NCBI GenBank assembly: GCA_021836865.1
Contig: JAKBHH010000001.1
Span: 1 to 64,000, forward strand
Direction: 5' to 3'
DNA: 64,000 nucleotides
DNA from: Acidobacteriota bacterium
GTDB lineage: Bacteria > Acidobacteriota > Terriglobia > Terriglobales > Acidobacteriaceae
Shown here piece after piece: positions 46,011-59,164 of this stretch (position 1 is the stretch's first letter; every line of letters starts with the position of its first letter). The notes beneath the pieces were generated by a model that was not told where the DNA came from, did no database searches, and saw only the letters and a program-made list of their open reading frames with translations. The translations under genes and the position numbers were made by a program.

Positions 46011-46056
46011 GAAAAACTTGCTCCGAGTTTGCAGGTTAATTCCCTCCATTTCGCTA
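46011..46056 (+). promoter_or_regulatory. Phage-region upstream element, copy 1
   Basis: The blocks GAAAAA, TCCGA, TTTGCA, GTTAATTCCC and TTTCGCTA occur in this order and closely match copy 2 at 54765-54811. It lies 212 bases upstream of the next start codon. It may be a phage-type promoter or regulator-binding site. Confidence 0.6.
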
Positions 46057-46182
46057 TCCTGAATACATTCCAGAAACAGAAGCAAGGCTAAAGGAGAGCG
46101 CGTGTTGCTCTTCTCATTCTTTTCGGACTCCTGCCGCGGACTCTGTGCCGTCGAAATGAGCCTGAAAGCAACGGCGCGGATC

Positions 46183-46203
46183 GCGACTCCGGCGCGGAGT
46201 CGC
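46183..46203 (+). promoter_or_regulatory. 9-bp leader hairpin
   Basis: GCGACTCCG pairs perfectly with CGGAGTCGC across a 3-base loop in the long leader of the 117-residue gene; a similar strong stem lies in the portal leader. Confidence 0.6.
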
Positions 46204-46268
46204 TGGGCAAACCATCCGCTGCACCGGGTCACAACCGCGGAAGGCTGTCCGGGATTGGCGGACAGAAA

Positions 46269-46622
46269 ATGGAAACGCAGAACAAATTCGTGGGGATGCA
46301 ATCGCCACGCATATCGGAAACGGAACAGGAACCACCCGTACTCAACGGCGCTGAGCAAATGCGACTTGCCGCGGACATCGTCCTGCGGGAAAAAAGCCTT
46401 GACATCGCAGACGCGCTGGCAGACAGCAGTAAGCAGGGCCACATCCAGTGTGCCAGGTTCCTCTATGACCTCGCCGAGCGCTACGGAGCAATCGCGCAAA
46501 AGCAGACGGAGGAGCAAGACCAAAGCATCGCTGCCCAGTGGGCGGCGGAGGCTGAGTGGACGGGGCAAAGCTGTGAAGAAAATGCGGAAACAAACGGCGG
46601 GTGCCGCGAGCCCGAGGGCTGA
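46269..46622 (+). CDS. Hypothetical protein at the head of the phage-region unit
   Basis: This 117-residue, mostly helical protein contains LAADIVLREKSLDIADALADSSKQGHIQCARFLYDLAERYG, a pattern I recall from small uncharacterised acidobacterial proteins. The C terminus has an acidic AEAEWTGQSCEEN segment. Its position 149 bases before the spike gene, behind the conserved upstream element, suggests a regulator or packaging accessory, but no motif proves this. A small terminase role would be speculation. Confidence 0.6.
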   Translation: METQNKFVGMQSPRISETEQEPPVLNGAEQMRLAADIVLREKSLDIADALADSSKQGHIQCARFLYDLAERYGAIAQKQTEEQDQSIAAQWAAEAEWTGQSCEENAETNGGCREPEG

Positions 46623-46770
46623 GCGGCTCGCGCCGGATTGTTCCCAGGCATCAAACCTCAACAGGAACGGTCCAACACAACTGGGCCATCGCCTGCGGGG
46701 CGCGGCAGTCAAGTGCCGCGCAACCTGACGACGATGGCCCTTCGGGCTATAACCGCAGAAGGAAGATAAG

Positions 46771-49700
46771 ATGAACCTCACGAAACTCGATTCGATGCGC
46801 GCCGCCAGGTGGCTCGCCACTGGCCTGCTCGGCATGGCGCTTGCGGGTCTGGCCTGCGCGCAGGGCGTCACCACAACCACCGTGCAGGGAACCGTCTATC
46901 TGGCCAACGGCCAGCCGGGCTCGGGAACCGTCCTCATCAGTTGGCCCTCCTTCACCACCGCCGGCGGCGCGCTCGTCGCAGCCGGCAACACAACCGCCAC
47001 CATCGGCGCGGATGGCTTCCTCAGTGTGAACCTCGCGCCCAATCTCGGCTCATCGCCCGCCGGACTCTTTTACACAGCCGTCTTTCAAATGAGCGACGGC
47101 TCCTACAGCACGCAATACTGGGTCGTGCCCGCCGCATCGCAGGCCGCCCTCGCCGCCGTCCAGTCGCAGATCATGCCCTCCGTGCAGGCCGTGCAGGCTG
47201 TCAACAAGGCCTATGTCGATCAGGCCATCCAGGCCGTCACCGCCAGCACGCTCGCGCCTTCCGGCGGCACCCTCACCGGCCCGCTCTACCTCAGCGGCGA
47301 CCCCACACAATCCCTTCAGGCCGCGGACAAGCACTACGTCGACGCCTCCTTCAGTCAGGCCCTGCCGCTCACCGGCGGCACGCTCACCGGCCCCGTTACC
47401 GCCACGCAAATCGGCGCAGCGATTCAGGTCGATCAGATGTCCGGCGCCGACTTCGGCGCAAAGCTGCAATCCTGCCTGGCCGGCATCAGCAGCACCTACG
47501 GCGGCACATGTGACGCGCGCAACTTCTCCGGCGCCCTCGCCATGGCCGCCAATGTCACCATCTCCACCGCCAACACCACCGTGCTTCTGCCCTGCGCCAC
47601 CATCAACACTGCGGATCAAATCCTCGTCACCGCGGGCACGCGCAATGTCTCGCTGCGCGGCTGCGCGCTGCGCGGTTCCAGCGCTGCCAGCGGCACACTC
47701 GGCGGCACCGTCTTCGCGTACTCCGGCTCAGCCGCCATGATCCAGGTTGGCGACCCCACCTACGCCGCCGACACGCAGGGCTTCCATCTCGACAACGCCG
47801 TCCTCAACACCACCGCCTCCGCCAGCGCCACCGCGCAGGGCCTCCGGGCCTACCGCACGCAGGAGCTCGACCTCGAAAGCCTCTACTTCCAGGGCAACTC
47901 CAACCAGACCGCCCTCACCCTCGACGGCACCGGGAACTACACCGGCGGCACCTTCTATGACGACGCCTTCACCGGCTTCCTCATCGCCGTCAACGCCATC
48001 GGCCACCAGGTCGCGAATCCCGCCACCACGGACTGGCTCAACGCCAGCACCTTCGTCCGCCTTCACATCGACTGCCCTACCGCAAGCGGCAATCCCATCC
48101 CAGGCGCCACCGGCATCAACCTGGCGCAGGGCGACGGCAACACCTTCACCGGTGGCGATGTCGAAGGCTGCTCCACCGCGCTGCACCTCGGCCCCAACGC
48201 GCAAAACAATACCATCGTCGGCCTGCGCAATGAGAACTCCGCAAGCCAGGTCATCGCCGACGTCGGCAGCGCCTACAACAACTGGATCACCGGCGGCACC
48301 ATGTTCTCCGGCAAACTCACTGACAACGGCACGCGCAACAGCTTCCTTGATACCTTCCATCGCAGCTTCAACGGCATCAACGGCGACTGGTACGGCTCGC
48401 AGCAGGACGCAACCGTCACCAACCACTTCCGCCTCGGCACCGGCGCCGGCAACGAGCGCGGCCTTCTGGATCGCTACCAGACCGACTCCGGCTATCGCTG
48501 GACAGCCGGCCTCAGCGACGCCGCCGCGGGCGAGCAGTTCTACCAGGTGCTCGACGAGCTGAACAACGTCTATCGCCTCTCCATCGGCCAGTACAACAAC
48601 GGCCAGTCCAGCACCAACAACCAGACCGTCCTCAACGCCGCGGGCTCCGGTGCCGTCGTCCTCAACGGCTCCAGCAACTCCGGCACCGGCGGCGTCATCT
48701 TCGGCTCCGGCGGACCCAGCGAAGCCACCGTCGCCACCATCAGCAACACCGGCAACGCCCAGTTCAACGGGACGTTGCAGGTCGCGGGCCCATCCACCTT
48801 CACCTCATCCGCCACCGTGCGCAACCAGGCCGATGCCGAGATCGACGCATTGCTATGGGCCGGCCTCACCGCAGAGCAGAAGGAGTCCTTCATCTACAAG
48901 GACCACACCGGTCTGAGCCAGTGGTACATGGTCAAGGACGCAAGTAACAACTGGGCCCTCAACTCCGCCACCGGCGGCCTTGACAGCATCAAGGCGTATC
49001 AGAGCACCAACTCCGGCGACACTTACATCAACGCCTCCAACGCAGCCGGCGTCGTGCGCGTCAACTACGAGCCCGGCGCAGGCACGGCCTTCAACGTCTA
49101 CGGCGGCGGCAGCAGCGCGCTCTACGCCAGCTTCAGCGGCACAAAGGCCATCAAGCTGCCCGGCCTTGCCGCGGCCAGCGGAACGAACTGTCTGCAGATC
49201 GACAACTCCGGCTACATCACCAACACCGGCGCGGCCTGCGGCTCCGCCAGCACCACCGGCACCGTCAATGGAGGCTCCGCCGGACAGATCGCCTTCTACA
49301 ACTCCACCGGCACCGCCATCAGCGGCATGAGCGCCGTCCCCGTCAGCGCAGGCGGAACCGGCACCACCACGCCGGCGGGAGCACTGGCAAACCTGGGTGG
49401 CCTTCCCCTTGCCGGCGGTACCCTCACCGGTCCACTCATCGCCAGCGTCAATGAGCAGTTCAACGTGATGGCCCCTCCCTACAACGCCAAAGGCGATGGC
49501 GTTACAGACGACACTGCAGCAATCAACTCCGCTATTACGGCGGCGGGCGCTGCGGGCGTTGTGGTTCTGCCGCCCGGCTACGCATTTAAGGTAAGCGCAC
49601 TCACCTTGCAGAACTACACAAAGATCAGCGCGAGCGGCGCGAAGCTGATTCCGTCCACTGCCAATCAGACGCTACTCACGATTCCAGCAGGCCCAAGCTT

Positions 49701-51228
49701 GCAGACCAACGGGAAACTCATCATCTCAGGCCTTGAAATCGACGGAAGCAGCCAGAGCGGAACAACGGGGATCGCCGCCGGTAACAACGCTCAGGTGATT
49801 CTCGACAAGGTAAACATCCATGATTGCGCGGTAGGAGCGGCACTAACCGCAACCCAGTTCGCCGACTTTTATTCCCTGCGCCTCTATAACAACGGCGTCG
49901 GAATGAAGGTTTATTCAGACCCTTCAGCCGGAGGAGGAAACAGCATCAACTTCTTTGGAGGGCAGATCGTAGGAAACACAGTCGGCGTGATCTTTGCGAC
50001 TTCAAACATGGGACAGGGGTCAAACTACTTCTATAACACTTCGTTCCTCAGCAACCAGGTTGCAGCCGTCGCAGCCTTCGGTGTCTCCGCTATGGCCGAG
50101 CAAGTGTATTTCTACGGCGCCACGCCGGAGGACAACGCTGTCTCAACAGCGCCCGCCAGCACCACGGTAGACGGTCATGTCATCCAACGCGCCGCGTTCT
50201 TCGGGAGTGCGGCCATGTTTAACTTCGAGTCAACGTTTGTAGCGGATGCGCTGGCAAACCCGTGGATGATCCTGACCAACGGTTCCATCGCCAGTCTGTA
50301 CGATCTTTCAGGATATGGCCAGCCTTATGGGGTGCTCGTTCAGGCCGACGCAACAAGCTCGGTGAAATTCAATGGATATGATGGGGCAATTGGCATCGTT
50401 GACAACATCGCCAAGTGGCCTCCCAGCCTGATACTGAGTACCGGCTGGCAGGGCTACGGCGCTGCTCTTTATGAGCCTTCAGCGATTCAGAATAACTTGA
50501 ATGGCACGCCTTCATCCCCCTACCTTTTCACTACGGGTGTTGCTTCGACGGGAACCGATAACGACCCCGTGTACGGCGTGGTCAACAATGTGACATTCGC
50601 TGCTTCCGCTGGAACGTCGGAGACGAATCGGGCGATACTTCCTGCCTTTTCCTCCGTGCCCACAGTGGCCTCCGATGTCGCCGTAAGCATTCTGGCGAAG
50701 TCCAACATCAATTGCAGCGTGCGTTACGGCAACTACCCCACCAACCCCTACGGTGTGACAGTCCCTCTTGCCGCTGGAATATGGACGCGCATGGTCTTCA
50801 CCATCGCTGATCTGGCAGCCAATACGAACGTAGACCCGATGCTCTACGCTGCCGATGCTTCCGGCTGTACCGTTGACCTGGCCAGAATGCAGATCACCGC
50901 AGGGCCGACCGGAACGCCCGCAACCCAGAGCGCAATTGCTCAAGTGATCGCAACAGGTGCCGTAGGGGGTGTCGGGTTGTCCTTGACGGGCACAACCGGA
51001 AGCATCGGCGGGTCAGCTCTGGCCGCGGGGGCCTGCACCAGCGGGACCGTAGCGGTTACGGGTGCAACGACAGGAATGTCGGTCGCGGCGTCGCCTGTTA
51101 CGTATCCCGGCGATGGCATCGCGTGGCGTGCCTATGTCTCATCGTCCGGCGTCGTCACCGTCAAGGTCTGCGCGGATGTGGCGGCAACTCCCGCGGTCAG
51201 CGCGTATAACGTGCGTGTCCTGCAGTAA
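46771..51228 (+). CDS. Large beta-helix protein, phage tail-spike-like, with signal peptide
   Basis: The 1485-residue product has a signal peptide (RWLATGLLGMALAGLACAQG). Three copies of a G-G-T-L-T-G-P repeat occur, near residues 168, 202 and 880; the first is followed by QAADKHYVDASF, as found in phage tail fibres. Two right-handed beta-helix regions follow: one around residues 220-500 starting DFGAKLQSCLAG, the other starting NAKGDGVTDDTAAINSAI near residue 905, typical of pectate-lyase-like phage spikes. The final AAGACTSGTVAV-like segment resembles a phage C-terminal tip. The second helix region has visibly lower GC than the first, so the gene may be a mosaic. A Sec signal is odd for a virion protein; a secreted polysaccharide lyase is an alternative. 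Confidence 0.8.
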   Translation: MNLTKLDSMRAARWLATGLLGMALAGLACAQGVTTTTVQGTVYLANGQPGSGTVLISWPSFTTAGGALVAAGNTTATIGADGFLSVNLAPNLGSSPAGLFYTAVFQMSDGSYSTQYWVVPAASQAALAAVQSQIMPSVQAVQAVNKAYVDQAIQAVTASTLAPSGGTLTGPLYLSGDPTQSLQAADKHYVDASFSQALPLTGGTLTGPVTATQIGAAIQVDQMSGADFGAKLQSCLAGISSTYGGTCDARNFSGALAMAANVTISTANTTVLLPCATINTADQILVTAGTRNVSLRGCALRGSSAASGTLGGTVFAYSGSAAMIQVGDPTYAADTQGFHLDNAVLNTTASASATAQGLRAYRTQELDLESLYFQGNSNQTALTLDGTGNYTGGTFYDDAFTGFLIAVNAIGHQVANPATTDWLNASTFVRLHIDCPTASGNPIPGATGINLAQGDGNTFTGGDVEGCSTALHLGPNAQNNTIVGLRNENSASQVIADVGSAYNNWITGGTMFSGKLTDNGTRNSFLDTFHRSFNGINGDWYGSQQDATVTNHFRLGTGAGNERGLLDRYQTDSGYRWTAGLSDAAAGEQFYQVLDELNNVYRLSIGQYNNGQSSTNNQTVLNAAGSGAVVLNGSSNSGTGGVIFGSGGPSEATVATISNTGNAQFNGTLQVAGPSTFTSSATVRNQADAEIDALLWAGLTAEQKESFIYKDHTGLSQWYMVKDASNNWALNSATGGLDSIKAYQSTNSGDTYINASNAAGVVRVNYEPGAGTAFNVYGGGSSALYASFSGTKAIKLPGLAAASGTNCLQIDNSGYITNTGAACGSASTTGTVNGGSAGQIAFYNSTGTAISGMSAVPVSAGGTGTTTPAGALANLGGLPLAGGTLTGPLIASVNEQFNVMAPPYNAKGDGVTDDTAAINSAITAAGAAGVVVLPPGYAFKVSALTLQNYTKISASGAKLIPSTANQTLLTIPAGPSLQTNGKLIISGLEIDGSSQSGTTGIAAGNNAQVILDKVNIHDCAVGAALTATQFADFYSLRLYNNGVGMKVYSDPSAGGGNSINFFGGQIVGNTVGVIFATSNMGQGSNYFYNTSFLSNQVAAVAAFGVSAMAEQVYFYGATPEDNAVSTAPASTTVDGHVIQRAAFFGSAAMFNFESTFVADALANPWMILTNGSIASLYDLSGYGQPYGVLVQADATSSVKFNGYDGAIGIVDNIAKWPPSLILSTGWQGYGAALYEPSAIQNNLNGTPSSPYLFTTGVASTGTDNDPVYGVVNNVTFAASAGTSETNRAILPAFSSVPTVASDVAVSILAKSNINCSVRYGNYPTNPYGVTVPLAAGIWTRMVFTIADLAANTNVDPMLYAADASGCTVDLARMQITAGPTGTPATQSAIAQVIATGAVGGVGLSLTGTTGSIGGSALAAGACTSGTVAVTGATTGMSVAASPVTYPGDGIAWRAYVSSSGVVTVKVCADVAATPAVSAYNVRVLQ

Positions 51229-51295
51229 TCCATCCCCATCAACCAACCACCGCAGGCGCGCACCGCGGCGTGCGCGCCGCAGGGAGCGCCGCGCC

Positions 51296-52810
51296 ATGAT
51301 TTCAAATGAACAGCCGTTGCGCCGCCTGGCAATGGATCGCGAAGAGCTGATGCGTCTCGGACGCATCCTCGATCATCGCCCCGCGAGCCTGCAGGGCGAG
51401 ACCGTCGCCATGGCGCTCGCCGCGCGCCTGCTGCGCGTGCGCACTCGCGACGGCGCCTCAGCCCCGCTCCGTCCCAACCCCGCGCAGCGCGCCTTTGAGC
51501 AGCGGCGCGGCCAGCGCAACATCGTCCTCAAGGCGCGGCAGATGGGCCTTACTACATGGGCCGCCGCGCGCTTCTTCCTCAAGACCATCACCCAGCCCGG
51601 CACGCTCACCTTGGAGGTCGCGCACACCCAGGAGGCCGCCGAAGAGATCTTTCGCATCGTGCATCGCTTTCTCAGCCGCCTCCCCGCCGCGCTGCGCGAA
51701 GGACCGCTTAGAACCTCGCGCGCCAACGTGCGCCAGATTGCCTTTCCGCGCATCGACGCGCAGTATCTCGTCGTCTCCGCCGGCGACCGCAACGCCGGCC
51801 GCGGCCTCACCGTGCAGAACCTGCACTGCAGCGAGCTGGCCCGCTGGCCCGGCGACCCCGCTGAAACCCTCGCCGGCCTGCGCGCGGCGCTTGCGCCCAG
51901 CGGCGAAACCATTCTCGAGTCCACGCCCGACGGCGTCGGCGGCTGCTTTCATGAGGAATGGCTCAAGGCCGCTGAAACCGGCTTCGTGCGGCACTTCCTG
52001 CCCTGGTGGATTGAACCGCGCTATCGCGCCGCCGCCGTCGATGCTGCACCTCTTACCGAGGAAGAGCGCGACCTCTGCGCACGCCACAACCTCGACCTCG
52101 AGCAGATTGCCTTTCGCCGCCGGTTGCGCGCCGGCTTTCGCGGCCTCGCGCGCCAGGAGTATGCCGAGGACAGCGCCAGTTGCTTCCTCGCGAGCGGCGA
52201 GTCTGTCTTCGAGCTTGCGGCGATCGACGCGCGCCTCGCCACCGTCCCGCCTCCCGCCGAAACGCGCCGCAACGGCACGCTCGAAATCTGGCTGCCGCCG
52301 GTGACGGGCAAACAGTATCTGGTTGCCGTGGACCCGACCGGCGGCGGCAGCGAGGGCGACTACTCCGCCGCGCAGGTGGTTGAGTTGCACACCGGTCTGC
52401 AGTGCGCCGAGTTTGCCGGCCACGTCGGCGGCCTCGAACTGGCGCGTCTCATCACCGATCTTGCCCGCGAGTACAACCACGCCCTGCTCGTCATCGAGCG
52501 CAACAACCACGGCGCGGGCGTGCTGGCCCTGGCCGATACGGCCTGCGCCTACTCGCGCATCTATGCGCAGCGCGGCCAGCCCGGCTGGCTCACCACTACC
52601 GTCACGCGCCCCGCCGTGCTCGGCCACCTCGACGCCGCGTTGGTCGAAAACTCCGACCGCTTCATGAGCCGTCGTCTGCTGGCCGAGTGCCGCAGCTTTG
52701 TGCGCCTGCCCAACGGCGGCACCGGCGCCCGCGCCGGCACGCACGACGACCGCGTGATGGCCATGGCCATCGCCCTCGGCGCGCGGGCCGAGCTGCTGGC
52801 CAGGCCGTAA
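51296..52810 (+). CDS. Phage terminase large subunit
   Basis: This 504-residue ATPase-nuclease packages DNA into procapsids. The deviant Walker A loop is LKARQMGLTT near residue 80, and the RNase H-like nuclease domain shows AVDPTGGGSEGDYSA near residue 343 and the acidic THDDRVMAMAIAL near residue 482; LLVIERNNHGAG lies between. GGGAG precedes the ATG at 51296; longer frames upstream run into the spike gene in another frame. No small terminase gene is recognised nearby. Length is in the usual range. Confidence 0.9.
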   Translation: MISNEQPLRRLAMDREELMRLGRILDHRPASLQGETVAMALAARLLRVRTRDGASAPLRPNPAQRAFEQRRGQRNIVLKARQMGLTTWAAARFFLKTITQPGTLTLEVAHTQEAAEEIFRIVHRFLSRLPAALREGPLRTSRANVRQIAFPRIDAQYLVVSAGDRNAGRGLTVQNLHCSELARWPGDPAETLAGLRAALAPSGETILESTPDGVGGCFHEEWLKAAETGFVRHFLPWWIEPRYRAAAVDAAPLTEEERDLCARHNLDLEQIAFRRRLRAGFRGLARQEYAEDSASCFLASGESVFELAAIDARLATVPPPAETRRNGTLEIWLPPVTGKQYLVAVDPTGGGSEGDYSAAQVVELHTGLQCAEFAGHVGGLELARLITDLAREYNHALLVIERNNHGAGVLALADTACAYSRIYAQRGQPGWLTTTVTRPAVLGHLDAALVENSDRFMSRRLLAECRSFVRLPNGGTGARAGTHDDRVMAMAIALGARAELLARP

Positions 52811-52811
52811 A

Positions 52812-53720
52812 ATGCTGGTAGACATTCAGGCAGGCGCGGGGAGACTCTTGGCGGTTCTGGCAGTGCAGCATATCCGGCGGATGCGGGGCGGTGCCCAGGG
52901 CCAGTTGATGCTCGGCGCTGACGGTCACGCCTACGTCGTCAAGTTCCAGAACAACCCGCAGCACATGCGCGTGCTGGCCAACGAGCTGCTCGCCTCGCGC
53001 CTCGCCCTCGCCGCCGGCCTCACCGCGCCGCACGCCGAGCTCATTGAAGTCTCGCCCTGGCTCATCGACAACACCCCCGAGCTGGAGGTCGATCTCGGCC
53101 GCCGCCGCGAGCGCTGCACGCCCGGCCTCCAGTTCGGCTCGCGCTTCGTCGGCGGGCTCATGCCCGGCCAGGTCGTCGACTACCTGCCCGAAGACCAGCT
53201 CGGCGAACTGCGTAACGGGTCCGAGTTCGCCGGCATCCTCGCGCTCGACAAGTGGACCGGCAACGCCAACGGCCGCCAGGCCGTCTTTGCGCGCAAGCAG
53301 CGCGAGCGCCGCTACCGCGCCGTCTTCATCGACTACGGATACTGTTTTCACGCCGGCGACTGGAAGTTCGAGGACACTCCCCTGCGCGGCGTCTATTATC
53401 GCAACGACGTTTACCGCTCCGTCACCGGCTGGGAGTCTTTCGAGCCCTGGCTCGCGCGCATGGAGACGATGCCGCCCGAGACGCTCTGGGCCGCGGCCAA
53501 CGAGGTTCCGCCCGAGTGGTACGGCGGCGACCTCGCGGAGATGGAGACGCTCATCGAAGCGCTCCTCGCCCGCCGCGGCCGCATCCGCGATCTCATCGAC
53601 GCCTTCGCCCGTTCCGATCGCCATCCCTTTCCCAATTGGGGCATGCGCCGCGCAGATTGTGCCGCCGAACCGTGGCCTTCTCCGCCGTTCGGCGCTAGCA
53701 TCGCTGGGAGGGTCCAGTAA
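52812..53720 (+). CDS. HipA-like kinase
   Basis: The 302-residue protein has a HipA-type protein-kinase-like fold: an AYVVKFQNN strand with the ATP-binding lysine near residue 45, LASRLALAAGL, the catalytic-loop equivalent ALDKWTGNANGRQAVF near residue 145, and metal-binding FIDYGYCF near residue 174. It lacks the N-terminal domain of classical HipA toxins. HipA phosphorylates glutamyl-tRNA synthetase, but the target here is unknown. It begins two bases after the terminase stop and is followed by a DUF3037 gene, a pairing I recognise from many genomes. Cargo, superinfection exclusion or host-control roles are possible. Confidence 0.85.
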   Translation: MLVDIQAGAGRLLAVLAVQHIRRMRGGAQGQLMLGADGHAYVVKFQNNPQHMRVLANELLASRLALAAGLTAPHAELIEVSPWLIDNTPELEVDLGRRRERCTPGLQFGSRFVGGLMPGQVVDYLPEDQLGELRNGSEFAGILALDKWTGNANGRQAVFARKQRERRYRAVFIDYGYCFHAGDWKFEDTPLRGVYYRNDVYRSVTGWESFEPWLARMETMPPETLWAAANEVPPEWYGGDLAEMETLIEALLARRGRIRDLIDAFARSDRHPFPNWGMRRADCAAEPWPSPPFGASIAGRVQ

Positions 53721-53797
53721 GACCAGGGAAGAGGGACTAAGGGACGGTGGACTGAGGGACCAAAGGGCGGCGAAGACCGGCCCGGAAAGGAGCGCGC

Positions 53798-54640
53798 ATG
53801 ACCGACATCGCATCGAAACACAGCCGCCGCACCTGCGCCTTTCAGCTCCTGCGCTATGTGCCCGACGCGGTACGCAATGAGTACGTCCACATCGGCGTTG
53901 TGCTGCGCGAGCAGGGCGGCGCGGGCGGCCTCGAGCTGCGCTTCACGCGCGACTGGCGCCGCGTCCGCTGCCTCGACCCCGACGCCGACACCGCGCTCCT
54001 TGAATCCATGGAGGCCGAGCTGCGCCAGCGCCTCGCCGCGGACGCCGACGGCAAGCTGCGCCGCATCCTCGAAGAGTCGCTCTCGCTCAATGTGCAGATC
54101 ACCGAGCCGAAGGCGTATCTCGCCGAGAGCCTGCAGGCCGGGGTCGAAGAGCTGATGCGCCTCTACATCGATCCTCCCGCCCGCGAACGCGCGCAGCGCC
54201 TCAGCGGCCGCGCGGCGATTCATCAACAGATGCGCGCCGGATTCGAGCGCGCCGGGGTCTGGGACTTGTTGCGCAAGAGAATCCCCGCCTCCGACTACAC
54301 CCGCCCCGGCGATCCGTTGCGCATCGACGCGGGTTACCGGCCTAACGGCATCATCCGCATGTTTCACGCCGTCTCGCTCGAGCCCGGCGTGGAGATGGCC
54401 AAGGTGCTGGCCTTCTCCGCCGCCAGCCTCCGCGCGGGCGTCGAGCGCGTCGAGAAGGCCAAGCTCGAACTCACCGCCATCATCGAACCCGTGGCAAAGC
54501 TCGCTACGGAAGACGAACCGGACCGCCTCGCCCTCTACCGCTTCGGCGTCGAGACCATGGAAGAGCACCAGATTCGCGTGCTCACCACCGCCGATATGGA
54601 GCGCGTGGCCGAGACTGCGCGCCGCGAACTCAAGGTCTGA
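53798..54640 (+). CDS. DUF3037 protein paired with HipA-like kinase
   Basis: The 280-residue product begins FQLLRYVPDAVRNEYVHIGVVL, the diagnostic DUF3037 segment, then shows a charged helical middle and C-terminal region. DUF3037 genes commonly sit next to HipA-like kinase genes, so it may be the kinase's partner, antitoxin or substrate adaptor. The biochemical role is not known. GGAAAGGAG precedes the ATG. Between this gene and the kinase lie 77 bases with several GGGAC repeats. Confidence 0.85.
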   Translation: MTDIASKHSRRTCAFQLLRYVPDAVRNEYVHIGVVLREQGGAGGLELRFTRDWRRVRCLDPDADTALLESMEAELRQRLAADADGKLRRILEESLSLNVQITEPKAYLAESLQAGVEELMRLYIDPPARERAQRLSGRAAIHQQMRAGFERAGVWDLLRKRIPASDYTRPGDPLRIDAGYRPNGIIRMFHAVSLEPGVEMAKVLAFSAASLRAGVERVEKAKLELTAIIEPVAKLATEDEPDRLALYRFGVETMEEHQIRVLTTADMERVAETARRELKV

Positions 54641-54764
54641 ATCGCAGCGCACAAGCTCACAGAAACTTCTTCCCGCGCCTGAGGAAAAAATCTTGTCCAG
54701 TCTTTTTCTTTTCCACCGCCCCGAAGGACTCCCCTAACTGTCCTATAACTCGTCACTTACAGGA

Positions 54765-54811
54765 GAAAAATATTTTCCGATATTTTGCATGTTAATTCCC
54801 GCGTTTCGCTA
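54765..54811 (+). promoter_or_regulatory. Phage-region upstream element, copy 2
   Basis: Contains GAAAAA, TCCGA, TTTTGCA, GTTAATTCCC and TTTCGCTA in the same order and almost the same spacing as copy 1. It lies 185 bases before the portal start. Confidence 0.6.
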
Positions 54812-54870
54812 ACATAGATTTTGTAGAGAGAAATCAGGTGCTGTTGAGCCTGGTTCCTCTCCTTCATCTT

Positions 54871-54937: not shown

Positions 54938-54967
54938 AGGCATGGCACTCCGCGCGAGGCCATGCCT
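54938..54967 (+). terminator. Hairpin just before the portal gene
   Basis: AGGCATGGC pairs with GCCATGCCT across 12 bases, followed by TTGTTGTTT. It sits between the promoter-like element and the portal start, so it could be a conditional terminator. Confidence 0.55.
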
Positions 54968-54996
54968 TTGTTGTTTCTCCCACAAGGAAGGTGCGC

Positions 54997-56280
54997 GTGA
55001 ACGTGCGAGAGCAGTTGCGAGAGATCTGGCGGCAGGCCACCCATCAACCCAACGGTCGCAGGACCGATATGGCGGCAGGCGCCGTGGACGCCGAGGCGGA
55101 GCGCAAAACGCTGGCGCTTCCGGCCATCCTCAGCCCGGTGCAGTTCCCCGGCAAGCTGTTGCCCAAGCCCACGCCGATGAACCTGCGCCGCTTTGCCGAG
55201 ACGCCCGTCGTGCGCCGCGCCATCAACGTCATCAAGGACCGCATCGCGGCCATGGACTGGCAGGTGCGCGTCCGCCGCGGTGTCCTGCCCGGCGCGGTCC
55301 TTGACGCGCGCGAAAAGCTTCGCGCGCTAAGACGCACCCTCGAAGAGCCAAACGCGGTGGACAGCTTCCGCACCCTCATCGAGCAGGTCATTGAAGACGC
55401 CCTCACCGGCGGCTACGGCGCCATCGAGATGGAGCCTACCGGCGACGAAGAGCGGCCCGCGATGCTCTGGCCCGTGGACGGCGCGTCCATCCGCATCAAC
55501 GCGCGCTGGGACGGCCAGCCGGAGACGCCGCGCTATGCACAGGCCATGCCCGGCCAGCTCGACGGCGTCGATCTGCGCGACGACCAGCTCATGTACATCC
55601 GCATGAATCCGCGCAGCTTCACCCCCTTCGGCCTCGGCCCGCTGGAGGTCGCCTTTGAAACGGTCAACGAGTTTCTCTCCGCGCATCGTTTCGCGGCCAA
55701 GCTCGCGGCCAACTCCGTCGCGCAATACGCGCTCTGGCTCAACGAGGCCACGCCCGCGCAGCACGACCGCCTCATCCGCTGGTGGCAGGACGAGATTGAA
55801 GGCACGGGGCGTGTGCCGCTGCTCTCGACCGAACAGAAGCCCGAGGTGCTTCGCTTTGCGCAGGGCACAGACGCCGATCTGCGGCTGGAGTGGCAGCAGT
55901 TCCTCATTCGCATGGTCGCCAACGCCTTCGGCCTGCCGCCCATGCTGCTCGGCCTGGAGGGCGACGTGAACCGCGCCACCGCAGCGGAACTGGCCGACGA
56001 GGCCTTCCGCGGCGCCATTCTCCCGCTGGCGCAGTTGCTCGCCGATCACATCACACGCGACCTGTTCGCGAAATGTATCGGCTGGCGCGAATTCGAGTTT
56101 GCCTTCAACGATCTGAATGCGAGAGACGAGGAGACCGAGCTGGCCGTGCAGGTGCAATTGCTGCAGGCGGGCGTGCTCACCGTCAACGAGGTGCGGGCCA
56201 TGCGGGGACTGGCGCCGCTGGGTCCCGGTGGAGTGGCGCAACTGGCGGGCGAGGCAGAAGCGCACCAACAGGATGAGTAA
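54997..56280 (+). CDS. Phage portal protein
   Basis: The 427-residue protein forms the dodecameric DNA entry ring at one capsid vertex. It has HK97-type portal features: NLRRFAETPVVRRAINVIKDRIAAMDWQV near the N terminus, VIEDALTGGYGAIEMEP, DDQLMYIRMNPRSFTPFGLGPLEVA and RMVANAFGLPPMLLGL with ADEAFRGAILPLAQLLADHI at the C-terminal crown side. GTG at 54997 is preferred to GTG at 54991 because AAGGAAG lies at better spacing. It begins the capsid-tail operon. Confidence 0.9.
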   Translation: MNVREQLREIWRQATHQPNGRRTDMAAGAVDAEAERKTLALPAILSPVQFPGKLLPKPTPMNLRRFAETPVVRRAINVIKDRIAAMDWQVRVRRGVLPGAVLDAREKLRALRRTLEEPNAVDSFRTLIEQVIEDALTGGYGAIEMEPTGDEERPAMLWPVDGASIRINARWDGQPETPRYAQAMPGQLDGVDLRDDQLMYIRMNPRSFTPFGLGPLEVAFETVNEFLSAHRFAAKLAANSVAQYALWLNEATPAQHDRLIRWWQDEIEGTGRVPLLSTEQKPEVLRFAQGTDADLRLEWQQFLIRMVANAFGLPPMLLGLEGDVNRATAAELADEAFRGAILPLAQLLADHITRDLFAKCIGWREFEFAFNDLNARDEETELAVQVQLLQAGVLTVNEVRAMRGLAPLGPGGVAQLAGEAEAHQQDE

Positions 56281-58540: not shown

Positions 58541-59164
58541 ATGGCATATCTGCAGCCAGCGGATTACCCGAATTATGGATTGCCGGCTGGAACCTCGGCG
58601 GACTGGATCACGGCCGCCACCGCATTGATCAACAGCTTCTGCAGGCGGCCGGACCTGAACGTGATCCAGTACACGGAGCGCCTGCGTGTCGTGACCGGCT
58701 CGCAGACCGTGCGCCTGAGTTATCTGCCTCTGGCGCCGCTGGGCGCGGCTACGTCGCCACTAGTCTCTCTCGAAGGTCGCTACACCAAGCCGCGCCGCGG
58801 CGAGATCCTGAGCGACCCGGTCTTTGAGATCGTGTGGGCGTTTTCTCTACCCGGTCAGTGGACCACGATTGATCCCACGCTGGTGGACTTCGATCCCAAC
58901 ACGGGGGAGCTCACGTTGCCCTGGAACATCCTCGGGCTGCCGTTCAACGAGGTTGCGGCGACCTACACCGCGGGACTGACAACCATCGGCGATAACGTGA
59001 AGTCGGCCTGCGCGCAGATTGTGCGCAATGCCCAATCGACGCCCGCGCTGAACGCGAGCCGCTCGCGCATGGACACGATGTGGATGGAGTACTTCTCAAG
59101 TTCGCTGCTCGACGAGACCGTGCAGGCGTGGCTGCGCCCGTACGTTGCGAACAGGCTGGGGTGA
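58541..59164 (+). CDS. Head-tail connector-like protein
   Basis: The 207-residue product follows the capsid gene and starts MAYLQPADYPNYGLPAGTS with an aromatic, proline-rich N terminus, WITAATALINSFCRRPD, then mixed strands and helices ending SSLLDETVQAWLRPYVANRLG. This pattern and position fit a gp6-like adaptor that closes the portal. The family name is not proven. A GGAAGGG precedes the ATG. Confidence 0.65.
   Translation: MAYLQPADYPNYGLPAGTSADWITAATALINSFCRRPDLNVIQYTERLRVVTGSQTVRLSYLPLAPLGAATSPLVSLEGRYTKPRRGEILSDPVFEIVWAFSLPGQWTTIDPTLVDFDPNTGELTLPWNILGLPFNEVAATYTAGLTTIGDNVKSACAQIVRNAQSTPALNASRSRMDTMWMEYFSSSLLDETVQAWLRPYVANRLG

Follow-up and report, generated by a model that had tools for sequence, protein, structure and literature searches.

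Two short elements, P1 and P2, precede the two gene units of a phage-derived particle module in the window, the whole stretch of 64,000 nucleotides of acidobacterial DNA that was analysed. As judged by sequence comparison, P1 and P2 form one promoter class and are old promoters, each with its own ortholog at the same place in many Acidobacteriaceae. Shared control of the two units is well supported by these comparisons, and exclusive phage control is not supported. Two predictions from the DNA are new here: a third, unlinked lysis promoter of the P1/P2 class, and a hairpin that resembles a terminator and is conserved downstream of P2. Our preferred explanation, which we hold to be probable while allowing for considerable doubt, is that a putative host-encoded regulator jointly controls a domesticated module of the gene transfer agent (GTA)-like kind, with attenuation or antitermination as a second control.

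The module and its two upstream elements

The elements and the genes of the module are as follows.

46011..46056, + strand: element P1, with A-tract GAAAAA and box TTTGCAGGTTAATTCC at 46028-46043
46055-46060, + strand: inferred -10 of P1, TATCCT, 20 bp after TTGCAG
46269..46622, + strand: ORF of 117 aa that opens unit 1, likened to a terminase small subunit on its position alone, with no family match in profile searches
46771..51228, + strand: tail-spike-like protein with pectate-lyase / endosialidase N-terminal domains
51062..52810, + strand: terminase large subunit (terL), ORF as listed, the true start probably lying further downstream
52812..53720, + strand: HipA-like kinase, kept in the module across relatives
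53798..54640, + strand: DUF3037 protein, kept in the module across relatives
54765..54811, + strand: element P2, with A-tract GAAAAA and box TTTGCATGTTAATTCC at 54784-54799
54810-54815, + strand: inferred -10 of P2, TAACAT, 19 bp after TTGCAT
54997..56280, + strand: portal protein, opening unit 2 with a GTG codon
56331..63596, + strand: rest of unit 2, conserved genes, with a head-tail adaptor at 58541-59164 and no family match for the others

The sequence-only reading had described P1 and P2 as near-identical, and five blocks do occur in the same order at each; the distances it gave to the next start codons, 212 and 185 bases, are right (ATG at 46269 and GTG at 54997), and the window holds no third copy, as it had said. 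The strict core GTTAATTCCC-N2-6-TTTCGCTA has two exact matches in the window and none in 100 shuffles, and a whole-genome pattern search over 3.98 Mb again returned two; weaker members of the class lie outside the window in the same genome, at C16:69647 and C84:38597. Aligned against 684 upstream regions (1.52 Mb of its own genome), P1 finds P2 as its top match with a score of 24, followed by the promoter of hpnH (20), two more regions upstream of host genes (scores 17 and 16) and, in joint fourth place, the lysozyme promoter (16). The likeness between P1 and P2 ends within ~47 bp.

Sites of the class share a box, TTTGCnGnTAATTnCC, centred near -32 and preceded by an A-tract that belongs to the architecture; 19-20 bp separate TTGCnn from the inferred -10, TAnnnT, and a canonical -35 is absent. 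Across 52 aligned sites the TTGC, an ATT 7-9 bases further and the TAnnnT are near-invariant. The tRNA-Gly and tRNA-Met promoters of the same genome are, in contrast, canonical (TTGACC-N17-TATxxT). We infer that the box is a putative activator site substituting for the -35, and a dedicated sigma factor reading the class promoters is possible. A de novo dyad search of upstream regions in this genome was dominated by GC-rich pairs, the box signal being weak.

Conservation of P1 and P2 in relatives

The sequence 5' of the portal gene reads GTTTGCAGATAATTTCCnnnnTTCGCGGTAGGATCGATTTTGTTGA in ~50 relatives, with fixed spacing and an invariant TTGC. Model R1, built from the sequence of 39 P2-type sites with the P2 of the window outside its training set, retrieves that element (E 0.0015) and sites in most genomes of the genus; among the portal upstream regions compared, P2 was not found in more distant genera. 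P1 orthologs stand ahead of the spike/terminase unit in some ten genomes or more (loci L053, L055, L061, L064, L065, L185, L365, L369, L374 and L375), and those in G006, G011, G017 and G029 were found blind by the P2 model. Throughout the genus, P1 and P2 each keep their own orthologous place. The conserved bases downstream differ, being GAACATTC at P1 and CGATTTTGTTGA at P2, and several P1 orthologs have in common an extension, TTCGCTATCCTtGAAaCATTC, that is particular to P1; the two elements are for this reason not recent copies of one another.

One locus, L373 (G021:C251:15727), has a P2-like box 2 kb 3' of terL that is now upstream of a purE-like gene; no portal was detected in this genome, which suggests partial loss of the module.

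Prediction of each element from other promoters

The class can be assessed by leave-out models, which were built from the promoters of one gene in other species and run on 1.52 Mb of the own genome; this sample includes contigs picked for earlier motif hits, so that ranks are meaningful and site density is not. The lysozyme-only model places the lysozyme of the genome 1st, P1 2nd, hpnH 3rd and P2 5th, the top reversed-sequence control coming close to P2 (22.9 vs 24.4). The best five sites of the P2-only model are the lysozyme, hpnH, P1, a site on C153 and P2, and the best three of the P1-only model are P1, P2 and hpnH. That each element is predictable in its own genome from the orthologs of the other in other species bears out the earlier proposal of a promoter or regulator class shared by both units.

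A combined model, R2, run over all 3.98 Mb of the genome, gives 5 matches at E<=0.1: P1 (5.7e-7), the lysozyme (7.3e-6), P2 (9.6e-6), hpnH (7.4e-4) and a weaker fifth. The leave-out test is the cleaner of the two, because 3 of the 52 training rows of R2 come from the own genome and are sites that it recovers. An earlier matrix of 29 sites from other genomes, some of which later turned out to be P1 orthologs, had given P1 and P2 ranks two and three, no reversed control exceeding the threshold.

A detached phage-type lysozyme

The third promoter lies 69 nt ahead of a lysozyme gene that is unlinked to the particle module in the own genome.

C16:69123-69578: GH24 phage-type lysozyme (Pfam Phage_lysozyme, 2.3e-40; PHROG endolysin, 2.6e-48)

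This gene is found in 31 of the 36 genus genomes, mostly as a single copy, and TTTGCnGATTAATTCn...TGCTAGCGTG, with the spacing of P1 and P2, stands upstream of it in 26 of 30 loci (own genome included). In Terracidiphilus gabretensis S55, a cultured strain with the module, the lysozyme gene does not have this promoter. The arrangement suggests that the host switches particle building and particle release on together.

The GH24 lysozyme was not found in G028, where at L371 (G028:C548:372-414) the class box stands before the gene of an endolysin-type protein (GH108-like / PG_binding_3), possibly a replacement lysis gene. A 92-aa hydrophobic ORF on C132, preceded by a box-like site (L269:3885), was considered as a holin and set aside: no clear family was found for it, and its weak matches include no holin.

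Leaders and hairpins

Strong hairpins had been reported after both elements; this holds for the leader of P2 (z -5.9) and fails for that of P1 (z -1.6), which is not exceptional.

46057..46268, + strand: P1 leader, with hairpin GGAGAGCG..TGCTCTTC near 46092
54938..54978, + strand: intrinsic-terminator-like hairpin AGGCATGGC-N12-GCCATGCCT + TTGTTGTTTCT, conserved and covarying

In 75 of 78 loci a GC-rich, T-tailed hairpin stands between the position of P2 and the start of the portal gene, and 4 of 780 shuffles reach its score. Over ten pairs and 56 sequences, 98.9% of the cells are paired and 22 cells carry double changes; six pairs covary, a result that none of 500 shuffles reaches and that is far above slid controls. 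The distance from hairpin to portal start is ~18-45 nt in most loci, including those of distant relatives where P2 was not found. As the hairpin is downstream of P2, P2 transcripts must cross a terminator-like site, and we infer attenuation or antitermination there.

The 5' hairpin of the P1 leader near 46092 is conserved with some covariation (nine sequences). T-tailed terminator-like hairpins occur in the P1 leaders of several relatives, the copy in the window having no T-run. An Rfam scan of the window yielded two tRNAs and nothing else, so that no known RNA family is present in the leaders.

Distribution and descent of the module

The gene order (small gene) - spike - terL - HipA-like kinase - DUF3037 - portal - capsid/tail is found in ~80 Acidobacteriaceae genomes, read as far as the contigs reach, and similar small genes follow P1 in relatives too. 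The HipA-like kinase and DUF3037 pair between terL and portal was seen on examining ~80 Acidobacteriaceae loci. The portal gene is present in 28 of the 36 genus genomes at 78-88% identity (a single match in 27), and the 24 genomes searched beyond the genus all lack it; its relatives in GTDB genomes are all from Acidobacteria, mostly Acidobacteriaceae, and include Terracidiphilus gabretensis S55. TerL was found in 19 of the 23 genus genomes searched. Distances between portals correlate with those between the unlinked lysozymes (Mantel r 0.65, p 0.0005, n=21). Putative vertical inheritance of the module is read from presence, synteny and this Mantel test rather than from a host-marker tree.

The flanking genes examined belong to the host (MIP channel, altronate dehydratase, serine dehydratase / AIM24, ComM-type Mg-chelatase, Rho and DnaE2-type polymerase), and none in common with relatives was seen in the stretches compared. 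No integrase was seen among the neighbouring genes examined on both sides of the module, which matches, among those genes, the GTA trait of having neither integrase nor replication genes. The downstream flank, L181:6825-15665 (C13 69825-78665), encodes a ComM-type Mg-chelatase, Rho, a DnaE2-type polymerase III alpha and an ImuB-like Y-family protein.

No isolated phage in INPHARED accounts for the module, the nearest portals there being ~25% identical. Relatives at 53-85% are encoded by 21 IMG/VR fragments, which may be host DNA called viral.

Comparison with known systems

By its layout the present system looks like GafA/GafYZ control, membership of which we do not claim. GafA of Rhodobacter capsulatus binds the promoter of the GTA cluster and that of a lysis cassette (PMC6363796); one regulator acts there on structural and separate lysis promoters, as a putative one would here, whereas function has been demonstrated for the R. 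capsulatus GTA and the present module is known from sequence (PMC6363796). GafY of Caulobacter crescentus, with IHF, activates promoters with a degenerate -35, ~18 accessory ones included, and GafZ lets the polymerase pass terminators (PMC11150451). The likeness to CcGTA extends to a phage-derived cluster and accessory genes elsewhere with a common promoter type, to a degenerate -35 with activator rescue (putative here) and to a terminator needing bypass; unlike CcGTA, the present system belongs to another phylum, has an unrelated box sequence and two structural promoters, and carries its hairpin in the leader before the portal (PMC11150451). The GafA/GafYZ-type combination of degenerate -35, intact -10 and downstream terminator has its sequence counterpart at P2, and the GTA trait of lysis or accessory genes elsewhere that are co-regulated with the cluster has one, by sequence evidence alone, at the lysozyme.

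The late region of lambda has promoter PR', a leader of ~150-200 nt and the intrinsic terminator tR' before the structural genes, with antitermination by Q. The order of promoter, leader and intrinsic terminator ahead of structural genes is the same here, and the promoter box is unrelated to that of lambda.

One such locus has been described before: Cluster 153 is an acidobacterial predicted active prophage, and the present module (L096, 712483-733763) lies within its member from T. gabretensis S55 (LAIJ01000009 contig 10, 700000-740000); the part of that account on which we draw mentions neither a promoter or regulon nor a leader hairpin or domestication (Eichorst et al. 2018, PMC5900883). 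In the open-access literature searched, neither a GTA nor the present promoter class was found described for Acidobacteriota.

Host genes and specificity of the class

The earlier suggestion that the regulator is perhaps phage-specific finds no support: the box also precedes hpnH, whose product HpnH is a hopanoid-pathway enzyme and which is by sequence a firm member of the class, related boxes precede pheS, nnrD and lpxB, and some relatives have 30-70 sites. The boxes at pheS, nnrD and lpxB in the own genome come with a CACAAT -10 and lie partly inside a dispersed promoter-like repeat. Box counts exceed reversed-pattern controls ~4-7x (72 vs 17, 34 vs 5), and class sites per species range from ~5 up to tens, with dozens in G022, G032, G033, G013 and G023. 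The 69 matches in G022 are mostly an amplified 80-nt repeat, and raw cross-species site counts are for this reason not taken as regulon size. No consistent theme was found among the genes downstream of the sites in G006, G013 and G023.

The dispersed repeat of the own genome reads TTCTCTATCC..CTCATTCCA..AAAA..TTTTGCAG..ATTTCCC..CGCGCACAATA and stands before unrelated genes (pheS, lpxB, nnrD) at L243, L254, L278, L294, L295, L301 and L302; several copies then carry a T-tailed CCTGAGA..CTCAGG hairpin. The many near-identical 80-nt copies in G022 (L344-L354), apparently an amplified repeat, carry the box TTTGCAGATAATTACC + GGCGCACAATT.

Proposed mechanism and alternatives

P1 and P2 would be orthologous promoters serving a particle module of phage origin that Acidobacteriaceae have kept by vertical descent. 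A putative host-encoded activator, bound to the box, would bring in the housekeeping sigma factor where no usable -35 is present, so that the packaging and spike genes, the capsid and tail genes and the lysis enzyme may be switched on together, plus a few host genes such as hpnH. P2 transcripts would then meet the conserved intrinsic terminator, ~30 nt short of the portal start, and full expression would need attenuation control or antitermination; the lethal particle-making programme would stay off unless the activator step and the terminator step were both satisfied.

The same box with a CACAAT -10 at ordinary host genes means that it could mark a general alternative promoter, read by another sigma factor or by a variant of the housekeeping type, rather than a switch, with no dedicated co-regulation; the boxes at pheS, nnrD and lpxB and the dozens of sites in some relatives speak for this. 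We nevertheless think it rather unlikely, for this genome has few class sites with the TAnnnT -10 (the 5 matches of R2), the three best of them stand at the two module units and at the phage-type lysozyme, whose promoter is conserved in most loci, and vegetative promoters of the genome look canonical. Far less credible still is an origin of the two elements from a mobile, dispersed repeat or from a recent duplication inside the module: promoter-like repeats whose box is similar are indeed dispersed in the own genome, and an amplified one is present in G022, yet extended identity at non-orthologous places, the mark of a repeat, is absent. There are two strict copies, their likeness stops within the element, the bases downstream are distinct, and orthologs keep their position in many species; on the confined likeness and the positional orthologs we reject the dispersed-repeat identity that the sequence-only reading had set against its own proposal.

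As to the portal-leader hairpin, we give an appreciable but lesser chance to its ending transcription of unit 1, or acting on mRNA stability, instead of attenuating P2. It lies between the two units, whose borders commonly bear terminators, just ahead of the ribosome-binding site; against this, P2 is upstream of it, and its spacing to the portal start is kept even in distant relatives where P2 was not found. Returning to joint control by a host regulator, we propose tentatively, and leaning somewhat against it ourselves, that the module may be an unrecognised Acidobacteriaceae GTA, in which two structural operons and the detached lysozyme would form one host-controlled regulon, gated by an activator-dependent promoter class and by processive antitermination at leader terminators. 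To our knowledge, functional GTAs with worked-out regulation are mainly those of Alphaproteobacteria. If true, GTA-like biology would be extended to another phylum, via a family-wide module in a dominant soil group, and the 'active prophage' label of these loci may be wrong. The box and the leader hairpin are short DNA targets with which the regulator might be fished out of a cultured strain.
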